The position numbers were made by a program, and so were the translations under genes. From Actinomycetota bacterium (GTDB lineage Bacteria; Actinomycetota; Acidimicrobiia; IMCC26256; JAENVU01), in assembly GCA_016870395.1 (NCBI GenBank), contig VGBT01000003.1, forward strand, positions 1 to 64,000: a stretch of DNA of 64,000 nt. The letters are read 5' to 3'. A model generated the notes under the pieces. That model did not search any database, was not told where the DNA came from, and worked only from the letters and a program-made list of their open reading frames with translations. Positions 26,253 through 38,580 of the stretch are shown here, piece after piece (the first letter of the stretch is position 1; every line of letters begins with the position of its first letter).

Positions 26253-27578
26253 TCAGAGCTCGAGTGGCTCGTGTCCGATTGCCGTGATGAGCGAGTCGAT
26301 GCTCTCGGAAACACCCTTGCGCATGCGGCCGATGAGCGCTGCCGCCATCACCGCGGTTGCGAGAGTCGAGCCGACCACGAAGCCGACCTCGACGCGCAAC
26401 GGCAAGCGGTCGATGGCCGCCGTGCCGATCAGGAAGCCGAGCACGCCGACTCCCCACGCGAAGGTCACGGTCCGGTGACCGTGCAGCGCGATCAGTGCCT
26501 GCGCGATCGTGAGGGCGACGATGAAGATGCCACTCCCCAGCGCGAGCAACCCCAGGTCGAGGTTGTCGATCGTGAAGTCCTCGAAGAGGATCTTGCCGGC
26601 GGCCGGCCCGATGGCGAAGGCCGCGAGGGTGCCGATGCCCGCGATCCCGACCACGACCAGCAGGAGCTGCTTGAAGCCGGTCCGGAAGTCGTCGTGGCGG
26701 CCCGCGCCGGCCAGGTTGGCGAGCTTCGGGAGCAAGGTGCCCTGTACGGCCTGGAAGAGGAGCACCGGGATGCGCGCCACGAAGAACGCCGACGTGAACG
26801 CGGCAGCTGCGGCCTTGCCGGTGCTTGATTCGAGGAAGTTGATGCCGAGGAGCGAGGAATAGGCGAGGAGCTGCATCAGCACGGAGCCGGCGAGGAGCCA
26901 GCCCAGCGCATTCGAGAGCTCGGAGTAGGGCGCGGGCGGACCGGGGGTGAGGAGCCCGTGTTGCTTGCGGAGCGCGAACAGCACGGCCGCGAACGGCGCC
27001 AGCGCGATGCACATCCCGTATGCGCCGGCCGTGTTGGCCCCGAGCGACGTGAGCACTATCGCGGCGCCGAGACGCACCGCGCCCTCGGTGGCGAGCATCT
27101 CCCCGTAGGGCCGGAAGCGAGCGTTCCCCGAGAGCGTTCCACGCACGGTGTGCATGCAGTAGAAGCCGACGAGGCCGACGGCGAGGCTCGCGACGAGGAG
27201 CCAGTCGTCGTCGAAGCGCTCGATGTACAGCGGCGACGTCGCGATCACGATCACCACCAACGCCGCCGTGAGGATCCCGCCGAGGCGGGCGGCGCGCACG
27301 ACCAGCGGCTTGCCGCCGAGACCCTGGGCCCGGCGGTGGGCGAGGGCCCTGCCAACCTCTTGCTCGAGCGGCAGGAAGAGCCCGGGCCCCGCGACGAAGA
27401 TGAAGCTCCAGAAGAGGCCGAACGCGGTCTCGCCGCCCTCGCCGAGGGAGTTCAGGGCGACGATGACGAAGACGTAGGCGGTGGCCGCGGCGACTGCGAG
27501 GCCCGCGCCGACCGCGAAGGTCCCCTCGGGGGCGACATCACGGACCTTGCCGATGAGCTTGCTCGCGTGGTCCCTCAC
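26253..27578 (-). CDS. Polysaccharide flippase-like membrane protein (MOP superfamily)
   Basis: A 441-residue integral membrane protein with about 12 predicted helices, the normal number for Wzx/MviN-type transporters of the MOP superfamily that move lipid-linked sugars across the membrane. Landmarks are FGLFWSFIFVAGPGLFLPLEQEVGRALAHRRAQG and RIPVLLFQAVQGTLLPKLANLAGAG, both characteristic of O-antigen export proteins. It is the first gene of the glycan operon, with a probable TATGCT -10 about 80 bases upstream of the GTG start. No polymerase, ligase or priming transferase is in the window. Confidence 0.8.
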   Translation of the reverse strand: MRDHASKLIGKVRDVAPEGTFAVGAGLAVAAATAYVFVIVALNSLGEGGETAFGLFWSFIFVAGPGLFLPLEQEVGRALAHRRAQGLGGKPLVVRAARLGGILTAALVVIVIATSPLYIERFDDDWLLVASLAVGLVGFYCMHTVRGTLSGNARFRPYGEMLATEGAVRLGAAIVLTSLGANTAGAYGMCIALAPFAAVLFALRKQHGLLTPGPPAPYSELSNALGWLLAGSVLMQLLAYSSLLGINFLESSTGKAAAAAFTSAFFVARIPVLLFQAVQGTLLPKLANLAGAGRHDDFRTGFKQLLLVVVGIAGIGTLAAFAIGPAAGKILFEDFTIDNLDLGLLALGSGIFIVALTIAQALIALHGHRTVTFAWGVGVLGFLIGTAAIDRLPLRVEVGFVVGSTLATAVMAAALIGRMRKGVSESIDSLITAIGHEPLEL

Positions 27579-27714
27579 AGGCGGACGTTCGATCCTGGGT
27601 CGGCGACGATGCTGGCGTGCGGTGCTGGCGTGCGTGCGGGTGAGCCGCCGCAGACGGGTTCGAGCATAGCGGCGGGATGGGCCGATCCCGGCTCCTTGGT
27701 GCGATCATCACGGG

Positions 27715-27804
27715 GTGAAGACGCGCACGCTCATGCTGCTCGCGCTGGTCACCGGGATGGCAATCCTGGCCGCCGGGGCGGTCCAGATCCTCATGGCCCG
27801 CTGA
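27715..27804 (+). CDS. 29-residue single-helix membrane peptide
   Basis: GTG-started frame encoding MKTRTLMLLALVTGMAIL, then AAGAVQILMAR. It is one basic N-terminus followed by one hydrophobic helix, the form of a membrane microprotein. Similar tiny proteins, with a KxRTL-x-LLAL start and VQ-x-L near the end, recur in actinobacterial genomes in my recollection, but none has an assigned role. It is the only frame in the 277-base gap between the flippase and lpdA and reads in the same direction as lpdA, 51 bases or so before it. Confidence 0.55.
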   Translation: MKTRTLMLLALVTGMAILAAGAVQILMAR

Positions 27805-27858
27805 GGGCGCGCGGAGGGGGAGAATGGCGCCGAGCACGAGCCCGTAGCCGACGAGGTG

Positions 27859-29250
27859 ATGAGCGTGGCCGAGCACTTCGACGTGGTGATCCTGGGCGGC
27901 GGCCCGGGTGGGTACGCGGCCGCGCTCTACGGGGCGGCGGCCGGCCTGCGGATCGCGCTGGTGGAGGAGTCCCGCGTCGGTGGCACCTGCCTGCACCGAG
28001 GTTGCATACCCGCCAAGGAGCTCCTCCAGACCGCGGAGGTGTTGCGAACGGTCCGCGACGCCGCCGAGTTCGGCGTCGGTGTGGGCGAGCCGACGCTCGA
28101 CCTTCCCGTCGCGCTCGCCCGCAAGCAGAAGGTCGTCGACAAGCTGACCAAGGGGCTCGAGTCGCTGCTCAAGGGGCGCCAGGTCACCGTGGTGCCGGGC
28201 ACCGGGATGATCGCCGATGCTGCCGATCGCCGGTTGCGCGTCGCAGACGGCACCGAGTGCACCGGTGACGCACTCGTGCTCGCCACCGGCTCCGCCCCGC
28301 GTTCGATCCCCGGCATCGATGTCGACGGTGAGCGTGTGCTCTCGTCCGATCACGTGCTCGCGCTCGACCGCGTCCCGGCGCGCACCGCGATCATCGGCGG
28401 AGGTGCGATCGGCTGCGAGTTCGCCTCCTACCTCCACGACGTGGGCAGCGAGGTCACCCTCCTCGAGGCGCTTCCCGCGATCCTCCCCGGAGTGGACGCC
28501 CAGGTCGCCGACGTGGTGTTCCGCGCCTTTCGTCGCCGCGGCATCTCGATGCACACCGGAGTGCACGTCGAGGGCGTCGAGGGCGTTGAGCCGACCGTCG
28601 TGCGCTTCACCGAAGCAGGGAACGTCTCCACGCTGGAGGTGGACGCGGTGGTCGTGAGCGTCGGGCGGCGGCCACGCTCCGAGGGCATCGGGCTCGAGGG
28701 ATCTGGAGTCGCGGTCGACCCCCACGGCTACGTCGTGGTCGACGGGTGCATGCGCACCGCCGTGCCCGGCGTCTATGCCGTCGGCGACCTCGTCGCGACC
28801 CCGGCGCTCGCGCACGTGGGGTTCGCGGAGGCGATCGTCGCGATCAAGTCCGTCTTGGGCGAGGACCCGGCCCCCCTCGACTACGACAAGGTGCCCTGGG
28901 GGATCTACTGCCACCCGGAGGTCGCGTTCAGCGGCCTCACCGAAGCCGTCGCGCGTGAGCGGGGCCACGACGTCGTGACCTCCGTACACCGGTTCGGCGG
29001 CAACAGCCGTGCAATCGTCCTCGGCGAGACCGACGGCATGGTGAAGATCGTGGCCGAGCGTGACGGCCCCGTCCTGGGGGTGCACCTCGCGGGACCGTGG
29101 GCCACCGAGCTGCTGGCCGAGGGGTACCTCGCGGTCAGCTGGGAGGCGACCGCAGCCGAGATCGGCGCGCTGATCCACGCGCACCCCACGCTCTCGGAGC
29201 TGTTCGGCGAGACCGCGCTCGCGCTCACCGGCCGCGGGCTGCACGGCTAG
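27859..29250 (+). CDS. lpdA: Dihydrolipoyl dehydrogenase (E3)
   Basis: FAD enzyme that reoxidises dihydrolipoyl groups of 2-oxoacid dehydrogenase complexes. The 463 residues have FAD loop ILGGGPGGYAAALY, redox disulfide GGTCLHRGCIPAK (C-x4-C), NAD loop AIIGGGAIGCEFASYL, ATGSAPRSIPG, VYAVGDLV, and the active-site His-Glu pair in IHAHPTLSELF. Three starts are close together: GTG 27856, ATG 27859 and GTG 27865; GAGG at 27853-27856 is best spaced for the last. It opens an operon with an E2 subunit and the LipB-LipA fusion, 16 bases before the E2 gene. Confidence 0.94.
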   Translation: MSVAEHFDVVILGGGPGGYAAALYGAAAGLRIALVEESRVGGTCLHRGCIPAKELLQTAEVLRTVRDAAEFGVGVGEPTLDLPVALARKQKVVDKLTKGLESLLKGRQVTVVPGTGMIADAADRRLRVADGTECTGDALVLATGSAPRSIPGIDVDGERVLSSDHVLALDRVPARTAIIGGGAIGCEFASYLHDVGSEVTLLEALPAILPGVDAQVADVVFRAFRRRGISMHTGVHVEGVEGVEPTVVRFTEAGNVSTLEVDAVVVSVGRRPRSEGIGLEGSGVAVDPHGYVVVDGCMRTAVPGVYAVGDLVATPALAHVGFAEAIVAIKSVLGEDPAPLDYDKVPWGIYCHPEVAFSGLTEAVARERGHDVVTSVHRFGGNSRAIVLGETDGMVKIVAERDGPVLGVHLAGPWATELLAEGYLAVSWEATAAEIGALIHAHPTLSELFGETALALTGRGLHG

Positions 29251-29266
29251 GACCATCGGAGCGCAC

Positions 29267-30517
29267 TTGGACGTCACCCTGCCCCAGCTCGGCGAGACCG
29301 TCACCGAGGGCACGATCACCCGCTGGTGCAAGCAGGTGGGGGAGTCGGTCGCGCTCGACGAACCGCTCTACGAGGTGTCCACCGACAAGGTCGACTCCGA
29401 GGTTCCCTCGCCCGCCGCCGGTGTGCTGACCGAGATCCTCGTCCCGGAGGGTGACACGGTGGAGGTGGGCGCGCGTCTCGCGGTGATCGCCGCGGTTGAC
29501 GTCGCCGCGGTTGACGTCGCCGCGGTGGCACCACCCACCGCGCCCGCGCCGGCGCCACGCACCCCGGATCCACCCGCACCCGCACCGGTTGCCACGCCGC
29601 CCTCGCCGCCGCCCCCCGTGGCCCCCGTGGCCGCCGATGTCAGGGTCACGTCCCCCGTCGTGCGGCGCCTCATGGCGGAGCGGGGCCTCGACCCGGCCCG
29701 GATCACCGGGACGGGAGAGGGCGGGCGCATCACGCGCCGCGACGTGTTGAACGCGCCCGGCGCCCCGGCGCGCACGCCGGGAGCCGCGCTAGCGCCCAAG
29801 GTCGGTGACGAGGTGCTCCCGTTCGACAACATCAGGCGGCGCACGGCCGAGCACATGGTGCGGTCGAAGGCCACGAGCGCGCACGTCTACACGTCGGTCG
29901 AGGTCGACTACGAGCGCGTCGACCGCGTCCGCCGCGCCCATCAGGCCGACTGGGTGGCCGAAGAGGGCTTCTCGCTCACCTACCTGCCGTTCATCGTCCG
30001 AGCGTTCTGCGACGCGGTGCGAGAGTTCCCCCGCGTCAACGCGAGCGTCGACGGGGACGCGCTCGTCATGCACCACGACCTCAACCTCGGCATCGCGGTC
30101 GACCTCGACTTCAACGGCCTGATCGCGCCCGTGGTCCGCGAGGCAGATGGCAAGCGGCTCCGGCTGGTGGCCCGGGAGATCCGTGACCTCGCGGGCCGGG
30201 CGCGTGCCAAGCAGCTCGGTCCCGACGAGGTCGTCGGCGGCACCTTCACGATCACCAACATGGGTCCGTTCGGCACGCTCATGACGCTTCCGATCATCAA
30301 CCAGCCTCAGGTGGCGATCCTGGCCACCGACGCGATCCGCAAGCGGCCGGTGGTGGTGGAGGGCCCCGACGGCGACGACGCGATCGCCGTCCATCCGGTC
30401 GGGGTGCTCGCGCTCACCTGGGACCACCGCGCCTTCGACGGTGCATACGCCGCGTCGTTCCTCCACGCGCTGCGCGAGATCCTCGAGACCCGCAACTGGG
30501 CGCCGGAGCTCGCATGA
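29267..30517 (+). CDS. 2-oxoacid dehydrogenase E2, dihydrolipoamide acyltransferase
   Basis: A 416-residue E2 with one lipoyl domain at the N-terminus (lipoylated Lys41 in [10 protein letters not shown]), an Ala/Pro-rich linker, an E1/E3-binding domain near residues 130-165 ([20 protein letters not shown]) and a catalytic domain ending in the active-site motif [11 protein letters not shown]. No E1 is present, so whether the complex acts on pyruvate, 2-oxoglutarate or branched-chain acids is unclear; one lipoyl domain and the TNMGPFG region fit SucB or branched-chain types. Start is TTG at 29267, five bases after CGGAG. It overlaps lipB-lipA by four bases. Confidence 0.92.
29495..29524 (+). 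repeat. 15-bp tandem repeat in the E2 linker
   Basis: GTTGACGTCGCCGCG occurs twice in tandem, adding a VDVAA unit after the lipoyl domain. It probably reflects slippage and lengthens the flexible linker. Confidence 0.8.
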
Positions 30518-32073
30518 CGCTGCGGGTTCGCTGGCTCGGACGGCTCCCGTACGCGGAGGCGCTCGACCTACAGCGTGCGCTGCATGCGCGCACGGAAGAC
30601 GACTACCTGCTGCTCCTCGAGCACCCGCACGTGTACACGCTCGGCAAGCGCGCAGATCCCGCCCACGTGCTCACGCCTCCCGCCGCCGTTGGAGCCGAGC
30701 TCGTGCGCACGGACCGGGGCGGCGACGTCACCTATCACGGTCCCGGGCAGCTCGTCGGCTACCCGATCGTCACGCTCGACGAGACCCCGGCGGGGATGCG
30801 CGACGTGGTCGCGCACGTGCGGCGCCTGGAGACCGCCCTCATCGACGTGTTGGCCGGATTCGGGCTCCGCGGCGCGCGCGAGGACGGGCTTGCCGGCGTG
30901 TGGGTGAACGGCGCGAAGATCGCCGCGATCGGCGTGCGGGTCGCCCGCGGGCGCACGATGCACGGCTTCGCGCTCAACGTCGACCCCGATCTCGCGATGT
31001 TCGGACACATCGTTCCTTGTGGCATCGCCGATCGGGGCGTGACCTCGCTCGCAGCGCAGCTCGGCGAGGCGCCACCGATGCGCGCGGTCGTCGACGCCTG
31101 CATCCAGGCCTTCTCGGAGCATCTGGGAGGCACGACGGTGGAGCGCGCCGACGTGGCCTGGGAGCGCGCGGCGGTACCGGTGGCGCTCGGGGCCGACCCC
31201 AGCGCGTTCCGGCGACCCGAGTGGATGAAGGTGCGCGCCGATCTCGGCCCGGGCTATCGCCGGCTCAAGCGCCTCGTGCGCGACGAGGCGCTCCACACGG
31301 TCTGCGAGGAGGCGGGCTGCCCGAACATCTTCGAGTGCTGGTCCCAGGGGACGGCGACCTTCATGATCCTCGGTGAGCGGTGCACGCGCGCGTGTGGCTA
31401 CTGCCTCGTCGACACCCGCAAGCCCCTCGCCGTGGATCCGGAGGAGCCCGAGCGCGTCGCCGACGCGGTCGGTCGTCTCGGGCTCGCGCACGCGGTCATC
31501 ACGAGCGTCGCACGCGACGACGTGGCCGATGGTGGCGCGTCGGCGTTCGCCGCGACCATCGGCGCAGTCCGCCGTCGCAACCCCACGACCACCGTCGAGG
31601 TGTTGATCCCGGACTGCAAGGGCGATCCCGAGTCGCTCGACGTGATCTTCGCCGCCCGTCCCGACGTCCTGAACCACAACCTCGAGACGGTCGCGCGGCT
31701 CCAGCGGTCGGCGCGGCCTTCCGCCGGGTACGCGCGCTCGCTCACCGTTCTCGCGCGCGCCAAGGACGCGGGCCTCGTCACCAAGTCCGGCCTCATCCTC
31801 GGCATGGGGGAGACCGACGACGAGGTGCGCGCTGCGCTGATCGACCTGCGGGCGGTCGGCACCGACATCGTCACGCTCGGCCAGTACCTGCGGCCGTCCC
31901 GGGCCCACCTGCCCGTCGCCCGCTGGTGGACCCCCGACGAGTTCGCCGCCCTGGGAGACCATGCGCGCGCCCTCGGCTTCGCCCACGTCGAGAGCGGACC
32001 GCTCGTACGGTCGAGCTACCACGCCCGCGATGGGGCGGCCGCCATCGAACCCTCGCGGGTCGAGGCGTCGTGA
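30514..32073 (+). CDS. LipB-LipA fusion: octanoyltransferase plus lipoyl synthase
   Basis: One 519-residue frame holds both steps of lipoate synthesis. Residues 1-215 are LipB, with [18 protein letters not shown], the catalytic Lys135 in [10 protein letters not shown] and the Cys169 nucleophile in [15 protein letters not shown]. Residues 233-519 are LipA, with [19 protein letters not shown], the auxiliary cluster cysteines 264, 269 and 275 (C-x4-C-x5-C), the radical-SAM cysteines 290, 294 and 297 (CTRACGYC) and the terminal RSSYHA. A linker of about 20 residues joins them. All catalytic residues are present, so both halves should work. The ATG overlaps the E2 stop by four bases, so the enzyme is made with its target protein. 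Confidence 0.93.
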
Positions 32074-32101
32074 CCCGCCCCGCCCGGCGCTGCTCGCCGC
32101 C

Positions 32102-32968
32102 GTGAGCCTCGATCTCGCCACGTTCCTGGTCCAGTGGGCCGCCGGCGGCCTGGCGTTCCTCTGGGTGACCTCGCGCCTGCGCGTGGTCAGCCTCGGCTAC
32201 GGGTGGCTGCTGCGCTCGGTGTACGGCGCCATGGGTGCCTTCGCCGTCTACGCCGAGACCCGCGCCGGGCATCACGGTGCGGCCGAGGCCGTGTTCGTCG
32301 CCGGAACTGCCGCGATGGTCGCGGCCACGGCGGTCGCGCTGTTCGTGAGCGTGGTGCGCCGCGGTGCCGGCGTGTCCGGAGCCCGCGCCGAGCGGGTGCG
32401 CCGGGCCGCGCGCGTCGCAGCGATGGTCGACGGGCCTCCGAGCACGCCGACCGAAGAGCCGGAGACGACGCCCGAGTTCCCTCCGGTGCTCGACCTGATC
32501 GCACCGGCGTTCGGGGTCGTCGCACTCCTGGGTGCGGCGGGGCTCAGCGGCGGCGCGTGGTGGCTCGCGGCGCTACGACTCCTGGCGGGGGCGGCGTTCC
32601 TCGGCTCCGTCACCGACGCGATGCTGCTGGGACACTGGTACCTCACCCAGCCCGGGCTCTCCCGCGCCCCGCTCAAGGACCTCGTGCTCGCGAGCGCGAT
32701 CGCGTGGCCTGTCGAGATCGTCGCGCTCTGCATCCCTGTCGGCATGCTCTCCGTACTCGCGGGCACGATCGACGACGGCTACGACGGCCTGCTCGGTTGG
32801 ATGTGGGTGGTGTGCGCGCTCGGGACGATCGCGCTCGTCGGCGTGACCTGGCTCGCGTTGCGCGAACGCGCGTACTCGGCGGTCATGGCCGCCACGGGGC
32901 TGCTGTACCTGGCGATCCTCACGGCCTTCGGCACCGACCTGGTCGCCCGGGCCTTGCTCGCGCCGTAG
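32102..32968 (+). CDS. Integral membrane protein of unknown function
   Basis: A 288-residue protein with about seven predicted helices: SLDLATFLVQWAAGGLAFLWV, then YGAMGAFAVYAETRAG, helix pairs around residues 60-85 and 140-175, and helices to the end. A hydrophilic, Pro/Thr/Glu-rich loop (PPSTPTEEPETTPEF) divides the first three helices from the rest. LGHWYLTQPGLSRAPLKDL is a striking polar stretch between helices and might be a functional site. The GTG at 32102 starts 28 bases after lipB-lipA and is in the same direction, so it may belong to that operon. I do not recognise the family. Confidence 0.75.
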   Translation: MSLDLATFLVQWAAGGLAFLWVTSRLRVVSLGYGWLLRSVYGAMGAFAVYAETRAGHHGAAEAVFVAGTAAMVAATAVALFVSVVRRGAGVSGARAERVRRAARVAAMVDGPPSTPTEEPETTPEFPPVLDLIAPAFGVVALLGAAGLSGGAWWLAALRLLAGAAFLGSVTDAMLLGHWYLTQPGLSRAPLKDLVLASAIAWPVEIVALCIPVGMLSVLAGTIDDGYDGLLGWMWVVCALGTIALVGVTWLALRERAYSAVMAATGLLYLAILTAFGTDLVARALLAP

Positions 32969-32985
32969 GCCCGCGACCCGGCGGT

Positions 32986-32991
32986 TAGCCT
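32986..32991 (+). promoter_or_regulatory. Leaderless -10 element for the secreted metallopeptidase
   Basis: TAGCCT, eight bases before the ATG at 33000. Confidence 0.5.
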
Positions 32992-32999
32992 GCCCCGCC

Positions 33000-34445
33000 A
33001 TGACTGCAGGGCGGGGCAGGACCATCTGGCTCGCGGCGGCGTTCGCAGCCGTGAGCACCGTGGTCGCACCGGTTCCGGCGGGTGCTGCGCCCGAGGCCGG
33101 CGACGAGTGGGACCCGAGGATCGAGGCCATCGCCGAGGAGGTCGCCGACCTGCGCGGCCTCGAGTTCGAGGAGCCGGTCGAGGCGCTGTTCCTCGGCGAC
33201 AAGGCGTTCCGCAAGCGCGTCACGTCCGAGGAGGACGACCTCACGAAGTCCGACAAGTTCGACCTGCGCTTCAGCGAGGCCGAGCTGCGCGCGCTCGGAT
33301 TGGTGGGCGGCGACATCGACCTCTTCGCAACCGTCAACGAGGAGGTGGGATCCGGCGTCGTCGCGTACTACAACCCCGACAACGGTCGCATCGTGATCCG
33401 CGGCAAGCGGCTCGACCCGTTCACCAAGGTGTCGGTCGCCCACGAGCTGACCCACGCACTCCAGGACCAGCACTTCGACCTCGCGGCGCTCGACGAGCAG
33501 GCGGCCGACAGCTCGGGCGCCACCGAGGCGGTCACGGCGCTGGTCGAGGGGGACGCCACCCGCATCGAGCTCGAGTACCTCGACACCCTCGACGACGACG
33601 AGCAGGACCGCTACTGGGAGCAGGCCGAGACCTTCGGGACCGATCCGGACGAGCCGGTGCTCGACGAGCCCGTGGACGCGAGCTCGGCGCTCGCCGGTGC
33701 GACCTTCGACGCCCCGTACGCGCTCGGGCCGTCGATGGTGAGCATCCTCGAGGTCGACGGCGGCAACCGCCGGGTCGACCGGGCGTTCCGCCACCCGCCC
33801 ACGACCCAGCGCCAGATCCTCGATCCGCTGACGGTCCTCGACCGGGCCCCCGAGGCGACCGTGCGGCCCCCTCGGAGGCCCGAGGGCACGAAGGCGGCGT
33901 GGCCCGATGACCTCCCGCACGACCTCGGCGCGCTCGACGTGTTCTTCCTCCTGGCGAGCCGGCTTCCCGCGCTCGATGCGCTCGCTGCGGCCGACGACGT
34001 GAAGGCGGGGGCTGCGAACGCGTACCGGGACGACGGCGCGCTGTGCTTCGACGTCGCGTTCCGCACGTTCGACGAGTCGGGCGCGGCGCGGCTCTCGGGC
34101 GCGCTGAAGATGTGGGCCGCGGCGATGCCGCCGGGCGCGGTGACCCAGCGCGCCAACGGGCTCGGATTCCGCGTGTGTGATCCCGGCGATGCGGCGGCGG
34201 CACCACCCAACTCGGTGCTCGACGCGTTGACCTTCGTATCCGGCCGATCGGACATCGAGTGGGCGCTCTACGACTCGGGTCTCGACGCCGAGGAGACCGA
34301 GTGCGTGGCGGGCGGCGTGGTGACCACGCCCGAGTTCGCGAAGATCGTCTCCGCACAGAACGCAGGTGAGGAGCCCGCGGACGCCGACTACGAGGCCATC
34401 TGGGACGTCGTGGACGACGCGACCGAGGCCTGCATCGACGACTGA
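33000..34445 (+). CDS. Secreted zinc metallopeptidase-like protein
   Basis: A 481-residue exported protein. Residues 1-29 are a Sec signal peptide (GRTIWLAAAFAAVSTVVAPV, cleavage likely after AGA). The catalytic motif is VSVAHELTHALQDQHFDL, where HExxH binds zinc, and a downstream Glu in TALVEGDATRIELEY is the probable third ligand, giving a gluzincin-type site. YYNPDNGRIVIRG precedes the motif as the expected edge strand. Proteins with HELTHALQDQHFDL are widespread in actinobacteria and uncharacterised. The rest is acidic, with two Cys pairs possible. It ends in a convergent gap with metH. Confidence 0.82.
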   Translation: MTAGRGRTIWLAAAFAAVSTVVAPVPAGAAPEAGDEWDPRIEAIAEEVADLRGLEFEEPVEALFLGDKAFRKRVTSEEDDLTKSDKFDLRFSEAELRALGLVGGDIDLFATVNEEVGSGVVAYYNPDNGRIVIRGKRLDPFTKVSVAHELTHALQDQHFDLAALDEQAADSSGATEAVTALVEGDATRIELEYLDTLDDDEQDRYWEQAETFGTDPDEPVLDEPVDASSALAGATFDAPYALGPSMVSILEVDGGNRRVDRAFRHPPTTQRQILDPLTVLDRAPEATVRPPRRPEGTKAAWPDDLPHDLGALDVFFLLASRLPALDALAAADDVKAGAANAYRDDGALCFDVAFRTFDESGAARLSGALKMWAAAMPPGAVTQRANGLGFRVCDPGDAAAAPPNSVLDALTFVSGRSDIEWALYDSGLDAEETECVAGGVVTTPEFAKIVSAQNAGEEPADADYEAIWDVVDDATEACIDD

Positions 34446-34487: not shown

Positions 34488-37400
34488 TTAGGCCACGAAG
34501 TACTTGGCCTCGGGGTGCGGGACGACGATCGCGCTGGTCGACTGCTCGGGCTCGAGCTGGCGTTCCTCGGTGAGCGCCACGTCGATCCGGGCCAGCTCGA
34601 GCAGCTCGTCGAGCTTGACCTGGTCGTCGAGGTCGGGGCACGCGGGATAGCCCCACGAGTAGCGGGAGCCCCGGTACTGCTGGCGGAACAGGCCGGCGAG
34701 GGACGGGCCGTCCTCGTCGGCGAAGCCCCACTCCTCACGGATCCGGCGGTGCCACAGCTCGGCGAGCGCCTCGGTCATCTCCACGGAGAGGCCGTGGCAG
34801 AGCAGGTAGTCCTGGTACCGGTTCGCGGCGAAGAGCTCGCGCTCGCGCTCGCTCGCCCGCGCCCCGACGGTGACGACGTGGAACGCCGCGTAGTCGACCT
34901 CACCCGAGTCGGCGGGGCGGAAGAAATCGGAGATGCAGAGGAACCGGTCCTTGCGCTGGCGGGGGAAGTGGAACCGCAGCCGCTCGTCGCGGCGGTCCTC
35001 GTCGCGCCATACGACCAGGTCGTCGCCTTCGCTGTTGACCGGGAAGTAGCCCCAGACGACGGCCGGTACGAGCCACCCCTCGGCCTTGGCGGCGTCGAGC
35101 TCGGACCGCAGGGTGGGGCGGATCCGGGCCTTGAACTCGTCGTCGGGCTCACCGCCTTCCGGGCGGAACTGCCACTGGTTGCGGAACAGCGCCGTCTCGT
35201 TGACGTACGTGGCGATCTCGTCCAGTGAGATGCCCTTGGCCACGCGCGCGCCCGGGAACGGCGGCGCGAAGACCGGCACATCCGTGGCGACATCGGAACG
35301 GGCCGGGACGGCCACGGTCTCGTCGGTGGGCTGTGAGCGCCGTGGCGGTAGGCGGCGGCCTCCCGGTGCACGGCCAAAGTCGGCATCGAGCGCGCCGGTG
35401 CGCTTGCCGTCCATCAGCGCGTCCATCGTGCGCAGCCCCTCGAAGGCGTCCTTCCCGTAGAAGAGGCGACCGTCGTAGACCTCACGCAGGTCGACCTCCA
35501 CGTAGTTGCGGGTGAGGGCGGCGCCGCCGAGGAGCACCGGGGTCTCGGCGAGCCCCAGCTCGTTCATCTCCTGCAGGTTCTCGCGCATGATGAGCGTGCT
35601 CTTCACCAGCAGGCCGCTCATGCCGATCGCGTCGGCCTCGACCTCCTTGGCCTTGTCGACGAAGTCCTGCAGCGGAGCCTTGATCCCGATGTTGTGGACC
35701 TCGTAGCCGTTGTTGGTGAGGATGATGTCGACGAGGTTCTTCCCGATGTCGTGCACGTCGCCCTTGACGGTGCCGATCACCACGACGCCCTTGCCGCCGG
35801 CGTCGGCCTTCTCCATGTGCGGCTCGAGGTACGCGACCGCGGTCTTCATGGTCTCGGCGCTCTGGAGCACGAACGGCAGCTGCATCTCGCCGCGGCCGAA
35901 GAGGTCGCCGACCACCTTCATCCCCTCGAGCAGCACGTCGTTGACGATCGAGAGCGCGGGTCTCCCGCCGGCCAGTGCCTCGTCGATCTCCGCGTCGATG
36001 CCGTCGCGCTCGCCGTCGATGATGCGGTGCTTGAGGCGGTCCTCCACGGGCCAGCCCGAACGGTCCTCCCGCTCGACGGCGCCGGCTTCGACGCCCTCGA
36101 ACAGGGCCATGAGCTCGGTGAGCGGGTCGTAGCCGTCGCGGCGCCGGTCGTAGACGAGGTCGAGCGCGACCTCGCGGGCATGGTCGTCGATCTTGTGCAT
36201 CGGGAGGATGCGGGCGGCGTGGACGATGGCGGCGTCGAGGCCGGCCTCCCTGCACTCGTGCAGGAAGACGCTGTTCAGCACGTGCCGAACCGCGGGCTTG
36301 AGCCCGAAGCTCACGTTCGAGAGCCCGAGCACCGTGGACGCGCCGGGGAGCTCCGCCTTGATCCGGCGGATCGCGTCGATCGTCTCGATGCCGTCGCGGC
36401 GCAGGTCCTCCTGGCCCGATCCGAGCGGGAACGTGAGCGGGTCGAAGATCAGGTCGGTGGGGTCGATGCCGTAGCGCTGGGTCGCCAGGTCGTAGATGCG
36501 GTGGCAGACCCGGAGCTTCCAGTCGGCGTCGCGAGCCTGACCCTCCTCGTCGATCGCGAGGCAGATGACGGCCGCGCCGTACTCGCGGGCGAGCGAGAAC
36601 ACGCGGTCGAGGCGCGAACCCGGGTGCTCGCCGTCCTCGAGGTTGGCGGAGTTGAGGATGGCCTTGCCGCCGGAGTGGCGCAGCCCGACCTCCATCACCT
36701 GGGGCTCGGTCGAGTCGAACACCAGGGGTAGCGCGGCCTGGGTGGCGAACCGGGACGCGACCCGCTCCATGTCGACGGTCCCGTCGCGCCCCACGTAGTC
36801 GACGCAGACGTCGAGCACGTGCGCGCCTTCCTTCACCTGTTCGCGGGCCATCTGCACGCAGGTGTCCCAGTCCTCGGCGAGCATGGCCTCGCGGAACTTC
36901 TTCGAGCCGTTCGCGTTGGTGCGCTCGCCGACCGCGAGGTACGAGAGCTCCTGCGCGTAGGGGACGGCGCTGTAGATGCTCGAGCAGCCGGGTTCGAACA
37001 CGGGCTCGCGTGGCGCCGGGGCGCGCGTGCCGAGGCGCTCGACGACGGCGCGCAGGTGCTCGGGCGTCGTGCCGCAGCAGCCGCCGACCACGTTGAGCCC
37101 GAACTCGGACACGAACCGTTCGTGCGCGTCGGCGAGCTGGTCGGGGGTGAGGTCGTAGTGGGTGTGGCCGTCGACGACCGACGGGAGCCCGGCGTTGGGG
37201 AGGCACGACAGGTACGTTCGGGCATGGCGCGCCAGGTAGCGCAGGTGCTCGGTCATCTCGGTGGGGCCGGTCGCGCAGTTGAGCCCGATCACGTCGGGCT
37301 GCATCGCCTCGAGGGCGTTGAGCGCCGCGCCGATCTCGGATCCCACGAGCATGCGCCCCGTGGTCTCCATGGTGACCTGCACCATGAGGGGGACCTCGCG

Positions 37401-37946
37401 GCCGGCGTCGGTCATCGCCCGGCGGCACGCGATCAGCGCGGCCTTCGCCTGGAGGAGGTCGTAGACGGTCTCGACGAGGAGCACGTCGGCGCCACCCTCG
37501 AGGAGCCCGGTCGCCTGGAGCTGGTAGTCGTCGCGGAGCACGGCGAAGGGGATCGCTCCGAGCGAGGGGAGGCGGGTGCCGGGTCCGATCGAGCCGATCG
37601 CCCAGCGCGGCCGCGCCGGGGTGGAGGCGGCCGCGGCGGCCTCCCTGGCGATCCGGGCGGCCGACACGTTGAGCTCGAAGGTCCGATCCGCGATGCCGTA
37701 CTCGGCGAGCACGAGGCCGAACGCGCCGAACGTCGCCGTCTCGACGGCGTCGACGCCGGCGGCGAAGTAGTCGTCGTGCATCGCCCGGATCAGGTCGGGC
37801 CGGGTGAGCACGAGATGCTCGTTGCAGCCCTCGAGGTCGGGCCCGCCGAAGTCGTCGGCTGTCAGGTCGCGGGCCTGGACCCAGGTTCCGAACGCCCCGT
37901 CGAGCACGAGGACGCGGGTGGCAAGGGCGTCGAGGAAGGTGGACAT
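34488..37946 (-). CDS. metH: MetH, cobalamin-dependent methionine synthase
   Basis: Transfers a methyl group from methyltetrahydrofolate to homocysteine through cobalamin. The 1152 residues have all four modules in order: homocysteine-binding barrel (1-310) with zinc Cys in LNCATGP and VVGGCCGTTPEH; pterin barrel (about 330-620, AVGERTNANGSKKFREAM); cobalamin cap and Rossmann domain (about 650-900) with the base-off motif GDVHDIGKNLVDI, whose His binds cobalt; and a C-terminal activation domain (HRRIREEWGFADEDG) that uses SAM. Length is about 70 residues below E. coli MetH. It is divergent from a cobalamin adenosyltransferase, 79 bases away; that gap is too short for a cobalamin riboswitch. 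Confidence 0.96.
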   Translation of the reverse strand: MSTFLDALATRVLVLDGAFGTWVQARDLTADDFGGPDLEGCNEHLVLTRPDLIRAMHDDYFAAGVDAVETATFGAFGLVLAEYGIADRTFELNVSAARIAREAAAAASTPARPRWAIGSIGPGTRLPSLGAIPFAVLRDDYQLQATGLLEGGADVLLVETVYDLLQAKAALIACRRAMTDAGREVPLMVQVTMETTGRMLVGSEIGAALNALEAMQPDVIGLNCATGPTEMTEHLRYLARHARTYLSCLPNAGLPSVVDGHTHYDLTPDQLADAHERFVSEFGLNVVGGCCGTTPEHLRAVVERLGTRAPAPREPVFEPGCSSIYSAVPYAQELSYLAVGERTNANGSKKFREAMLAEDWDTCVQMAREQVKEGAHVLDVCVDYVGRDGTVDMERVASRFATQAALPLVFDSTEPQVMEVGLRHSGGKAILNSANLEDGEHPGSRLDRVFSLAREYGAAVICLAIDEEGQARDADWKLRVCHRIYDLATQRYGIDPTDLIFDPLTFPLGSGQEDLRRDGIETIDAIRRIKAELPGASTVLGLSNVSFGLKPAVRHVLNSVFLHECREAGLDAAIVHAARILPMHKIDDHAREVALDLVYDRRRDGYDPLTELMALFEGVEAGAVEREDRSGWPVEDRLKHRIIDGERDGIDAEIDEALAGGRPALSIVNDVLLEGMKVVGDLFGRGEMQLPFVLQSAETMKTAVAYLEPHMEKADAGGKGVVVIGTVKGDVHDIGKNLVDIILTNNGYEVHNIGIKAPLQDFVDKAKEVEADAIGMSGLLVKSTLIMRENLQEMNELGLAETPVLLGGAALTRNYVEVDLREVYDGRLFYGKDAFEGLRTMDALMDGKRTGALDADFGRAPGGRRLPPRRSQPTDETVAVPARSDVATDVPVFAPPFPGARVAKGISLDEIATYVNETALFRNQWQFRPEGGEPDDEFKARIRPTLRSELDAAKAEGWLVPAVVWGYFPVNSEGDDLVVWRDEDRRDERLRFHFPRQRKDRFLCISDFFRPADSGEVDYAAFHVVTVGARASERERELFAANRYQDYLLCHGLSVEMTEALAELWHRRIREEWGFADEDGPSLAGLFRQQYRGSRYSWGYPACPDLDDQVKLDELLELARIDVALTEERQLEPEQSTSAIVVPHPEAKYFVA

Positions 37947-38025: not shown

Positions 38026-38580
38026 GTGAAGGTCTACACGCGCACCGGCGACGACGGCACGACGGCGCTGCTCTACGGCGGCCGGGTGCCGAAGGACGCG
38101 CCCGGGCCCACGGCCTACGGGGCGACCGACGAGGCGGTGGCCGCGCTCGGACTCGCCCGCGCCGAGGTCGGCGAGACCGACGAGCTGTTCTCGATCCTCG
38201 TCCGACTCCAGCGCGAGCTCTTCGTCGTGGGTGCCGAGCTCGCCACCGCGCCGGAGAACCGTCGCAAGCTCACCGACGGGACCACGCGGGTGACCGGAGC
38301 CATGGTCGGCGCTCTCGAGCCCCTGATCGACGACGTGACCGAGCGCTTCGACGCGCCGACGGAGTTCGTGCTCCCCGGCGAGAACCGGGTGGCCGCGGCG
38401 CTCGACGTCGCCCGCACCGTCGTGCGCCGGGCCGAGCGCGAGTGCGTGACCGCGACCTCGGTCGGCTGGCTCGAGCCAGAGAGCTTCGTCGTCGCGTACC
38501 TCAATCGACTCGCCGACCTCTGCTGGACGCTCGCGCGCTGGCAGGAGCACGGCTACCGCCCCGCGCGCGAGCGCGACTGA
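38026..38580 (+). CDS. PduO-type ATP:cob(I)alamin adenosyltransferase
   Basis: Makes adenosylcobalamin, the cofactor of methylmalonyl-CoA mutase (a mutase subunit is at 55.9 kb). The 184-residue product begins MKVYTRTGDDGTTALLYGG, the ATP-binding loop of the PduO family, and carries VVRRAERECV and YLNRLADLCW, its other conserved blocks. It is a cytosolic trimer in known members. The GTG start is probably leaderless. pepA follows 15 bases downstream in the same direction, and metH, the other cobalamin user, is divergent. Confidence 0.93.
   Translation: MKVYTRTGDDGTTALLYGGRVPKDAPGPTAYGATDEAVAALGLARAEVGETDELFSILVRLQRELFVVGAELATAPENRRKLTDGTTRVTGAMVGALEPLIDDVTERFDAPTEFVLPGENRVAAALDVARTVVRRAERECVTATSVGWLEPESFVVAYLNRLADLCWTLARWQEHGYRPARERD

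Follow-up and report, generated by a model that had tools for sequence, protein, structure and literature searches.

lipB and lipA of other actinobacteria and of Pseudomonas lie in the order seen here, lipB first and both on one strand, but they code for two proteins and a stop codon stands between them. The teamwork of LipB and LipA on a lipoyl domain is hard to test, any contact between the two being transient. The window (the whole stretch of 64,000 nucleotides that was analysed, from a genome of the class Acidimicrobiia) contains both in one gene. This locus raises the question whether one chain can carry out both steps of lipoylation, how the join arose and what it could do for the two enzymes. 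The reading that we favour, with a probability of about 0.8, is that a single chain does both lipoylation steps, that it descends from one ancestral fusion which was kept, and that the halves probably dock, with the synthase near the octanoylated domain.

The fused gene and its E3-E2 neighbourhood

Translation of the open reading frame gave a single frame of 519 residues at 30514-32073 on the plus strand, with no internal stop. The gene, its parts and the genes ahead of it are as follows.

27859..29250, plus strand: E3, dihydrolipoyl dehydrogenase, 463 residues (TIGR01350; Pfam Pyr_redox_2, Pyr_redox_dim)
29267..30517, plus strand: E2, 2-oxoacid dehydrogenase acyltransferase, 416 residues (Pfam Biotin_lipoyl, E3_binding, 2-oxoacid_dh)
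30514..30517, plus strand: ATGA overlap of the fusion start codon with the E2 stop, read at the junction from the frame ends
30514..31146, plus strand: LipB half, residues 1-211 (TIGR00214 at 26-202, NF010925 at 2-211)
31147..31200, plus strand: linker, about residues 212-229 (pLDDT down to 54 in block 221-230)
31201..32073, plus strand: LipA half, residues 230-519 and stop (TIGR00510 at 231-506, NF004019 at 234-510)

The LipB half scored 155.7 bits against the NCBIfam model TIGR00214 (cut-off 83.55) and 217.8 bits against NF010925 (cut-off 155); the LipB models NF010921-NF010923 scored under their own cut-offs. For the LipA half the scores were 348.7 bits against TIGR00510 (cut-off 310.25) and 399.7 bits against NF004019 (cut-off 203), and Pfam LplA-B_cat, LIAS_N and Radical_SAM were all above cut-off in the fusion. 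The LipB half has the catalytic pair K135 and C169 (codon of the latter at 31018-31020). The LipA half has the auxiliary-cluster motif CX4CX5C at C264/C269/C275, the radical-SAM motif CX3CX2C at C290/C294/C297 and the C-terminal RSSY at 499-502. A preliminary description of this DNA had named all of these residues at the same positions, and its claim of one continuous LipB-LipA frame is borne out by the translation and by matches above curated cut-offs for both halves. At the level of sequence the window fusion is confirmed as a complete LipB octanoyltransferase and a complete LipA lipoyl synthase in one frame, and the single chain is most likely bifunctional; we infer both reactions from the family membership of the halves.

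Conservation was followed over 168 aligned fusion sequences, which include the separate fusion L182 described below and cover some genomes twice (L029 = G002, L030 = G046, L041 = G464). It was found that C169, H150, G151 and all six LipA cysteines are present in every sequence, K135 in 167 (the remaining row is gapped) and S501 in 166, with two gaps. The complete or almost complete conservation of K135, C169 and the LipA cysteines points to constraint on both activities.

The preliminary description had also placed E3 and E2 directly upstream, with a four-base overlap to E2, and the shared ATGA agrees with this. E3 scored 466.6 bits against TIGR01350 (cut-off 408.8), and its frame has an alternative start one codon 5', at 27856. 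E2 consists of a single lipoyl domain, an E3-binding domain and a catalytic core. The best NCBIfam model for it, SucB_Actino, scored 353.2 bits, below the cut-off of 423.45, and E2 is therefore not assigned to the pyruvate or the 2-oxoglutarate complex. The neighbourhood is common among fused loci: of the 114 that have at least 2.2 kb of upstream DNA, 104 have an E2 whose end is no more than 900 nt away, and E2 and E3 both lie in the searched span in 80 of the 104 with at least 3.6 kb. An E2 that close was seen at 2 of 26 unfused loci, one being the class member L146, in counts that are not de-duplicated and were made with the window's own E2 and E3 as queries, so that distant copies at unfused loci may escape notice. 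In f22, a group of low G+C, other DNA intervenes between E2 and E3, the latter being about 3.3 kb upstream. Joint expression of the fusion gene with E3 and E2 is probable. A scan of 27400-33100 for promoter and terminator patterns found none, which is little informative because less than one site was expected by chance.

Distribution and origin of the fusion

The class sample comprised 134 genomes, namely 100 that include the window's own and 34 class members from a phylum sample of 396 genomes, in which up to three first-look candidates were scored per genome and 53 matchless genomes are unlisted. A match was found in 130 of the 134; G019, G030, G055 and G363 had none, the last being the only class member among the listed matchless genomes of the phylum sample. 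LipB and LipA stand in one stop-free frame in 125 of these 130. A single match spans both halves in 40 genomes (25 from the 100-genome set and 15 from the phylum sample), fetched regions revealed the fusion in 83 (65 and 18, respectively), and in G027 and G035 a partial LipA at the contig end lies in LipB's frame; contig ends also cut some of the other fused cases, such as G006, G012 and G031. As to the unfused remainder, LipA lies against a contig end with no LipB ahead on that contig in G011, G039 and G053. A lone LipB with no adjoining LipA found occurs in G047 (L139/L222) and, on a separate contig, in G053 (L148). In G057 (locus L146; G057:C1, about 768415-769946) LipA continues in a different frame, through an error or a real split, and this is the sole broken fusion seen in the class sample.

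The assembly of the window genome is fragmented (97 contigs), and an error of sequencing or assembly that deleted the stop between lipB and lipA would mimic a fusion. The same architecture is however present in the 125 class genomes, seven of them on a single contig (G021, G059, G069, G075, G079, G377 and G431); this recurrence rules out chance or sequencing error as its cause, and the probability of an artefact is vanishingly small. For G021, G059, G069 and G075, where every first-look candidate was scored, the only query matches are the fused gene or its halves. A search for both domains in one protein across actinobacteria had been proposed as a check, and the fusion so found is, among the sampled genomes, the normal state of the class Acidimicrobiia. 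Its spread had been understated: it is class-wide in the sample, with a single ancestral origin and one independent case.

The class is recognised as Acidimicrobiia by its relatives among named public records. From at least 597 pattern matches to these, the best 80 loci were kept; 56 were fused and 24 split, a ratio which by that selection is no frequency. Within these best 80, the fused records include Acidimicrobiia, Acidimicrobiales, Acidimicrobiaceae and Microthrix; the split ones include Mycobacterium, Nocardia, Streptomyces, Cellulomonas, Arthrobacter and others, and lipB and lipA adjoin in all 24 of them. Two fused records carry unexpected titles. L029, titled Bifidobacterium breve, has a class-type fusion with the query identities of G002, a member of the window's genus, and its title is probably wrong. 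L074, titled Acidobacteria, likewise has a class-type fusion and was placed amid class rows in the tree.

Phylogenies were built from LipB and LipA together. The first tree had 130 rows, from a set that excluded L209, L210 and L221 as repeats of other loci; L182 was lost to the redundancy filter and was added by hand to a tree of 50 rows. In the latter, a single clade (bootstrap 99, SH-aLRT 98) unites the 27 class fusions with the frameshifted L146, and the fused or split label needs three changes. When each half was analysed by itself, the class also fell on one side of a branch, but support was weaker (86 and 61). L182 (4354-6096) belongs to genome G452, of another class of the phylum; its LipB and LipA are fused, its congener L183 is split, and the eight other non-class loci fetched alongside it are all split. 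Of 151 genomes sampled from the order around G452, 144 had a match, and among the matches listed G452 alone was stop-free and full-length; the others were judged from table rows, by which a fusion split over two rows would be missed. Because of the class clade, the split L183 and the eight split non-class loci, we read the data as one old fusion, retained, in the ancestor of the sampled Acidimicrobiia, and an independent one in L182. By this sequence-based reading the class fusion would have arisen once, from adjacent lipB and lipA.

An origin from a mobile element was considered and rejected, as exact peptide patterns, which detect close relatives only, had no match in viral contigs and the plasmid matches that cover most of the query are all in two pieces. 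A viral fold library gave partial, low-identity matches only (ligases, radical-SAM proteins and others). Plasmids gave 214 matching records; in 8 of them the match reaches at least 80% of the query, always in two pieces. Of these eight, two have lipA and lipB annotated as separate genes under the match, and six have no gene annotated there.

The join and its possible role

The span between reference residues 198 and 236, which contains the linker, ranges from 34 to 181 amino acids (median 63, n=168). This span is 38 in the window protein, whose linker is short for the class. Several of the longer linkers inspected have an RLLGRLAEAGV-like segment shortly ahead of an RKP/RRP motif, and the window protein is without it. 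For sixteen of the 168 fused loci the surrounding DNA has a G+C content of about 34-45%, at which the chance of an open linker of that length is 0.001 to 0.06 each. The linker could also hold internal translation starts, from which LipA would also or mainly be made as a separate protein. An in-frame ATG, GTG or TTG does occur in the linker region of 166 of the 168 fusion genes, but a Shine-Dalgarno-like match accompanies one in 48 (29%) against 23% for random stretches of equal length from the same genes, and an ATG with such a match is found in 6. Linker starts are thus little enriched over the control, and we hold separate synthesis of LipA to be very improbable.

AlphaFold2, run with 75 fusion sequences, predicted the window fusion with a mean pLDDT of 93.6 and a pTM of 0.93. 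L192, a fusion with some 60 more residues in its linker, was modelled to test the effect of the short linker; it gave a mean pLDDT of 90.1 and a pTM of 0.91, with block means of 47 to 68 across residues 221-270. These pTM values exceed the expectation for two freely moving domains. The LipB half of the model superposes on the solved LipB structures 2qhs (Z 31.3) and 1w66 (Z 30.6), and the LipA half on M. tuberculosis LipA 5exk (Z 44.5). When LplA structures are superposed on the LipB half of the window model, most extend to 412-420 in LipA and one to 450; in the L192 model they extend to 475-484, and two to 507 and 513. Since the LplA ends fall on the same LipA helix (offset 63 residues), the two predicted arrangements agree there. 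The models thus suggest that the halves probably dock on each other and do not hang loose; as this is drawn from pTM and superposition ranges, and both models come from nearly identical alignments, it is support and not proof.

For the proposed course of the reaction, the LipB half would take octanoyl from acyl carrier protein by means of Cys169 and Lys135 and pass it to the lipoyl-domain lysine of E2, and would likewise octanoylate the H protein encoded elsewhere in the genome. The LipA half would then put two sulfurs into the same octanoyl chain, using two [4Fe-4S] clusters, and docking may keep the synthase near each newly octanoylated domain. The preliminary description had proposed that the octanoylated domain could pass from transferase to synthase without release; this is plausible, and the predicted docking would be compatible with it. 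Hassan and Cronan are said to have found in 2011 that LipA and LipB of E. coli co-purify with dehydrogenase complexes.

It could also be that the chain is bifunctional and the join fixes no more than a one-to-one expression, the halves working independently on a flexible tether with no hand-off. We give this somewhat less than an even chance. The wide variation of the linker is what such a tether would permit. The lipB and lipA genes already adjoin in the unfused loci noted above (all 24 among the best 80 of at least 597 matches), so that loss of the stop is a small step, and the independent fusion L182 has an unfused congener. The two pTM values, on the other hand, are higher than freely moving domains would give. 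The fusion has moreover been kept almost without reversal in the class sample, and around G452, with 144 matching genomes, that genome holds the sole stop-free full-length match among the rows listed.

A more demanding version of docking is that of a true two-site enzyme, in which the lipoyl domain, once octanoylated, moves over to the LipA site of that molecule and receives its sulfurs before it departs. E2 would then be lipoylated in one encounter, and the surface near LipA 394-418 could be a transient contact for LipB where the enzymes are separate. We regard this version as rather unlikely.

Some points speak against the favoured reading itself: the length of the linker is not conserved, as would hold for a mere tether, and other actinobacteria do well with two separate proteins. 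The class-specific LipA residues Q397, R398, A404 and R415 do cluster in 394-418, near the helix that the LplA ends reach. This stretch contains 4 of the 6 signature columns of LipA (by hypergeometric test p 0.0007, by rank test p 0.001), but it is also favoured by three control comparisons between unfused clades (p 0.04 to 0.08 and p 0.001 to 0.014 in the two tests, respectively). L182, the pair on contig C83 of the window genome described below and most loci of that genome were assigned to none of the groups compared, and at least three genomes are represented twice (L183/L230, L184/L245, L186/L228) among the 27 of the other-class group. The signature residues were dropped as proof of an interface, for 394-418 also separates two unfused LipA clades; it may be a surface that generally varies between clades, or one that touches LipB in every clade. 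For the favoured reading, that of one retained bifunctional chain with probably docked halves, a class with a permanent join is a stable object for tests of the hand-off, and the unfused relatives and the one independent fusion can serve as controls.

Other lipoylation genes and known systems

E2 had been described as the protein that the fusion must lipoylate. An E2 with a lipoyl domain does adjoin the fusion, but it is not the sole client, as contig C46 of the same genome codes for a glycine-cleavage H protein (TIGR00527, 158.4 bits, cut-off 115.85). Other matches to biotin/lipoyl domains are on contigs C5, C66 and C2, each with an MKM motif, and in our reading of the sequences these proteins look like biotin carriers. 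The 5,026-base contig C83 (locus L216, 1-5026) carries an unfused E2-lipB-lipA cluster of distant sequence, its LipA being 55% identical; in the tree this pair sits on a long branch and groups with unfused pairs of other classes, and the cluster may be contamination or an acquired second set. Contig C33 (locus L225, 1042-2262, minus strand) codes for a 407-residue protein that scored 59.5 bits against LplA-B_cat (cut-off 27) and has weak matches to NCBIfam LplA/LplB ligase models, all below cut-off; it is possibly a lipoate-protein ligase for salvage. Because of the C83 pair and this probable ligase, lipoylation in the genome may have sources besides the fusion.

The window protein can be compared with three known families. 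With LipB (TIGR00214, NF010925; structures 1w66 from M. tuberculosis and 2qhs) it shares the full domain, the Lys/Cys pair and the fold. It differs in being joined to LipA and in D71, which lies in a loop (12 protein letters not shown) and is found in most class rows, whereas the residue is K or R in most of the unfused LipB proteins of actinobacteria that were compared. With LipA (TIGR00510; 5exk from M. tuberculosis) it shares the full domain, both cysteine triads, RSSY and the fold; the N-terminus of its LipA half is however joined to LipB, and Q397, R398 and A404, present in nearly all class rows, are absent from the unfused groups. The closest precedent is the NCBIfam family NF053790 (LplA_LipA_fuse, bifunctional lipoate-protein ligase/lipoyl synthase), in which, judged by name and profile, an acyl-attaching enzyme likewise stands ahead of LipA, but its first half is the ligase LplA and that of the window protein is LipB. 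The window protein scored 356.6 bits against this model, below the cut-off of 800, the best stretch being profile positions 328-604 of 606, in the LipA half only. With no match to the LplA half, it was not taken as a member of that family.

Protein databases label some such LipB-LipA genes as multifunctional fusion proteins. Annotation may be affected, since a pipeline could name one half only. In the titles and abstract openings covered by the literature search, with most subscription journals outside its scope, no description of a LipB-LipA fusion was found; the matched passages of PMC12246082 and PMC9307952 belong to this search. In its matched passages, PMC10332631 deals with fusions of lipoate-ligase units, none of them joining LipB with LipA. 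The matched text of PMC4398509 concerns the lipBA operon in Shewanella, where "fusion" refers to reporter or PCR constructs, and that of PMC7240109 an unrelated subject. The window protein is probably a bifunctional lipoyl-assembly enzyme. Its chemistry is ordinary; unusual is the arrangement, which has been well kept across the sampled class.

The window also contains other genes beyond the fusion. The frame at 32095-32968 has no NCBIfam match. It precedes a gene on the plus strand at 33000-34445 whose product scored 119 bits against the Hvo_1808 surface-protein family, below the cut-off of 200. Further on, a cobalamin-dependent methionine synthase, MetH (34488-37946, minus strand), stands back to back with a PduO-type cobalamin adenosyltransferase (38026-38580, plus strand).
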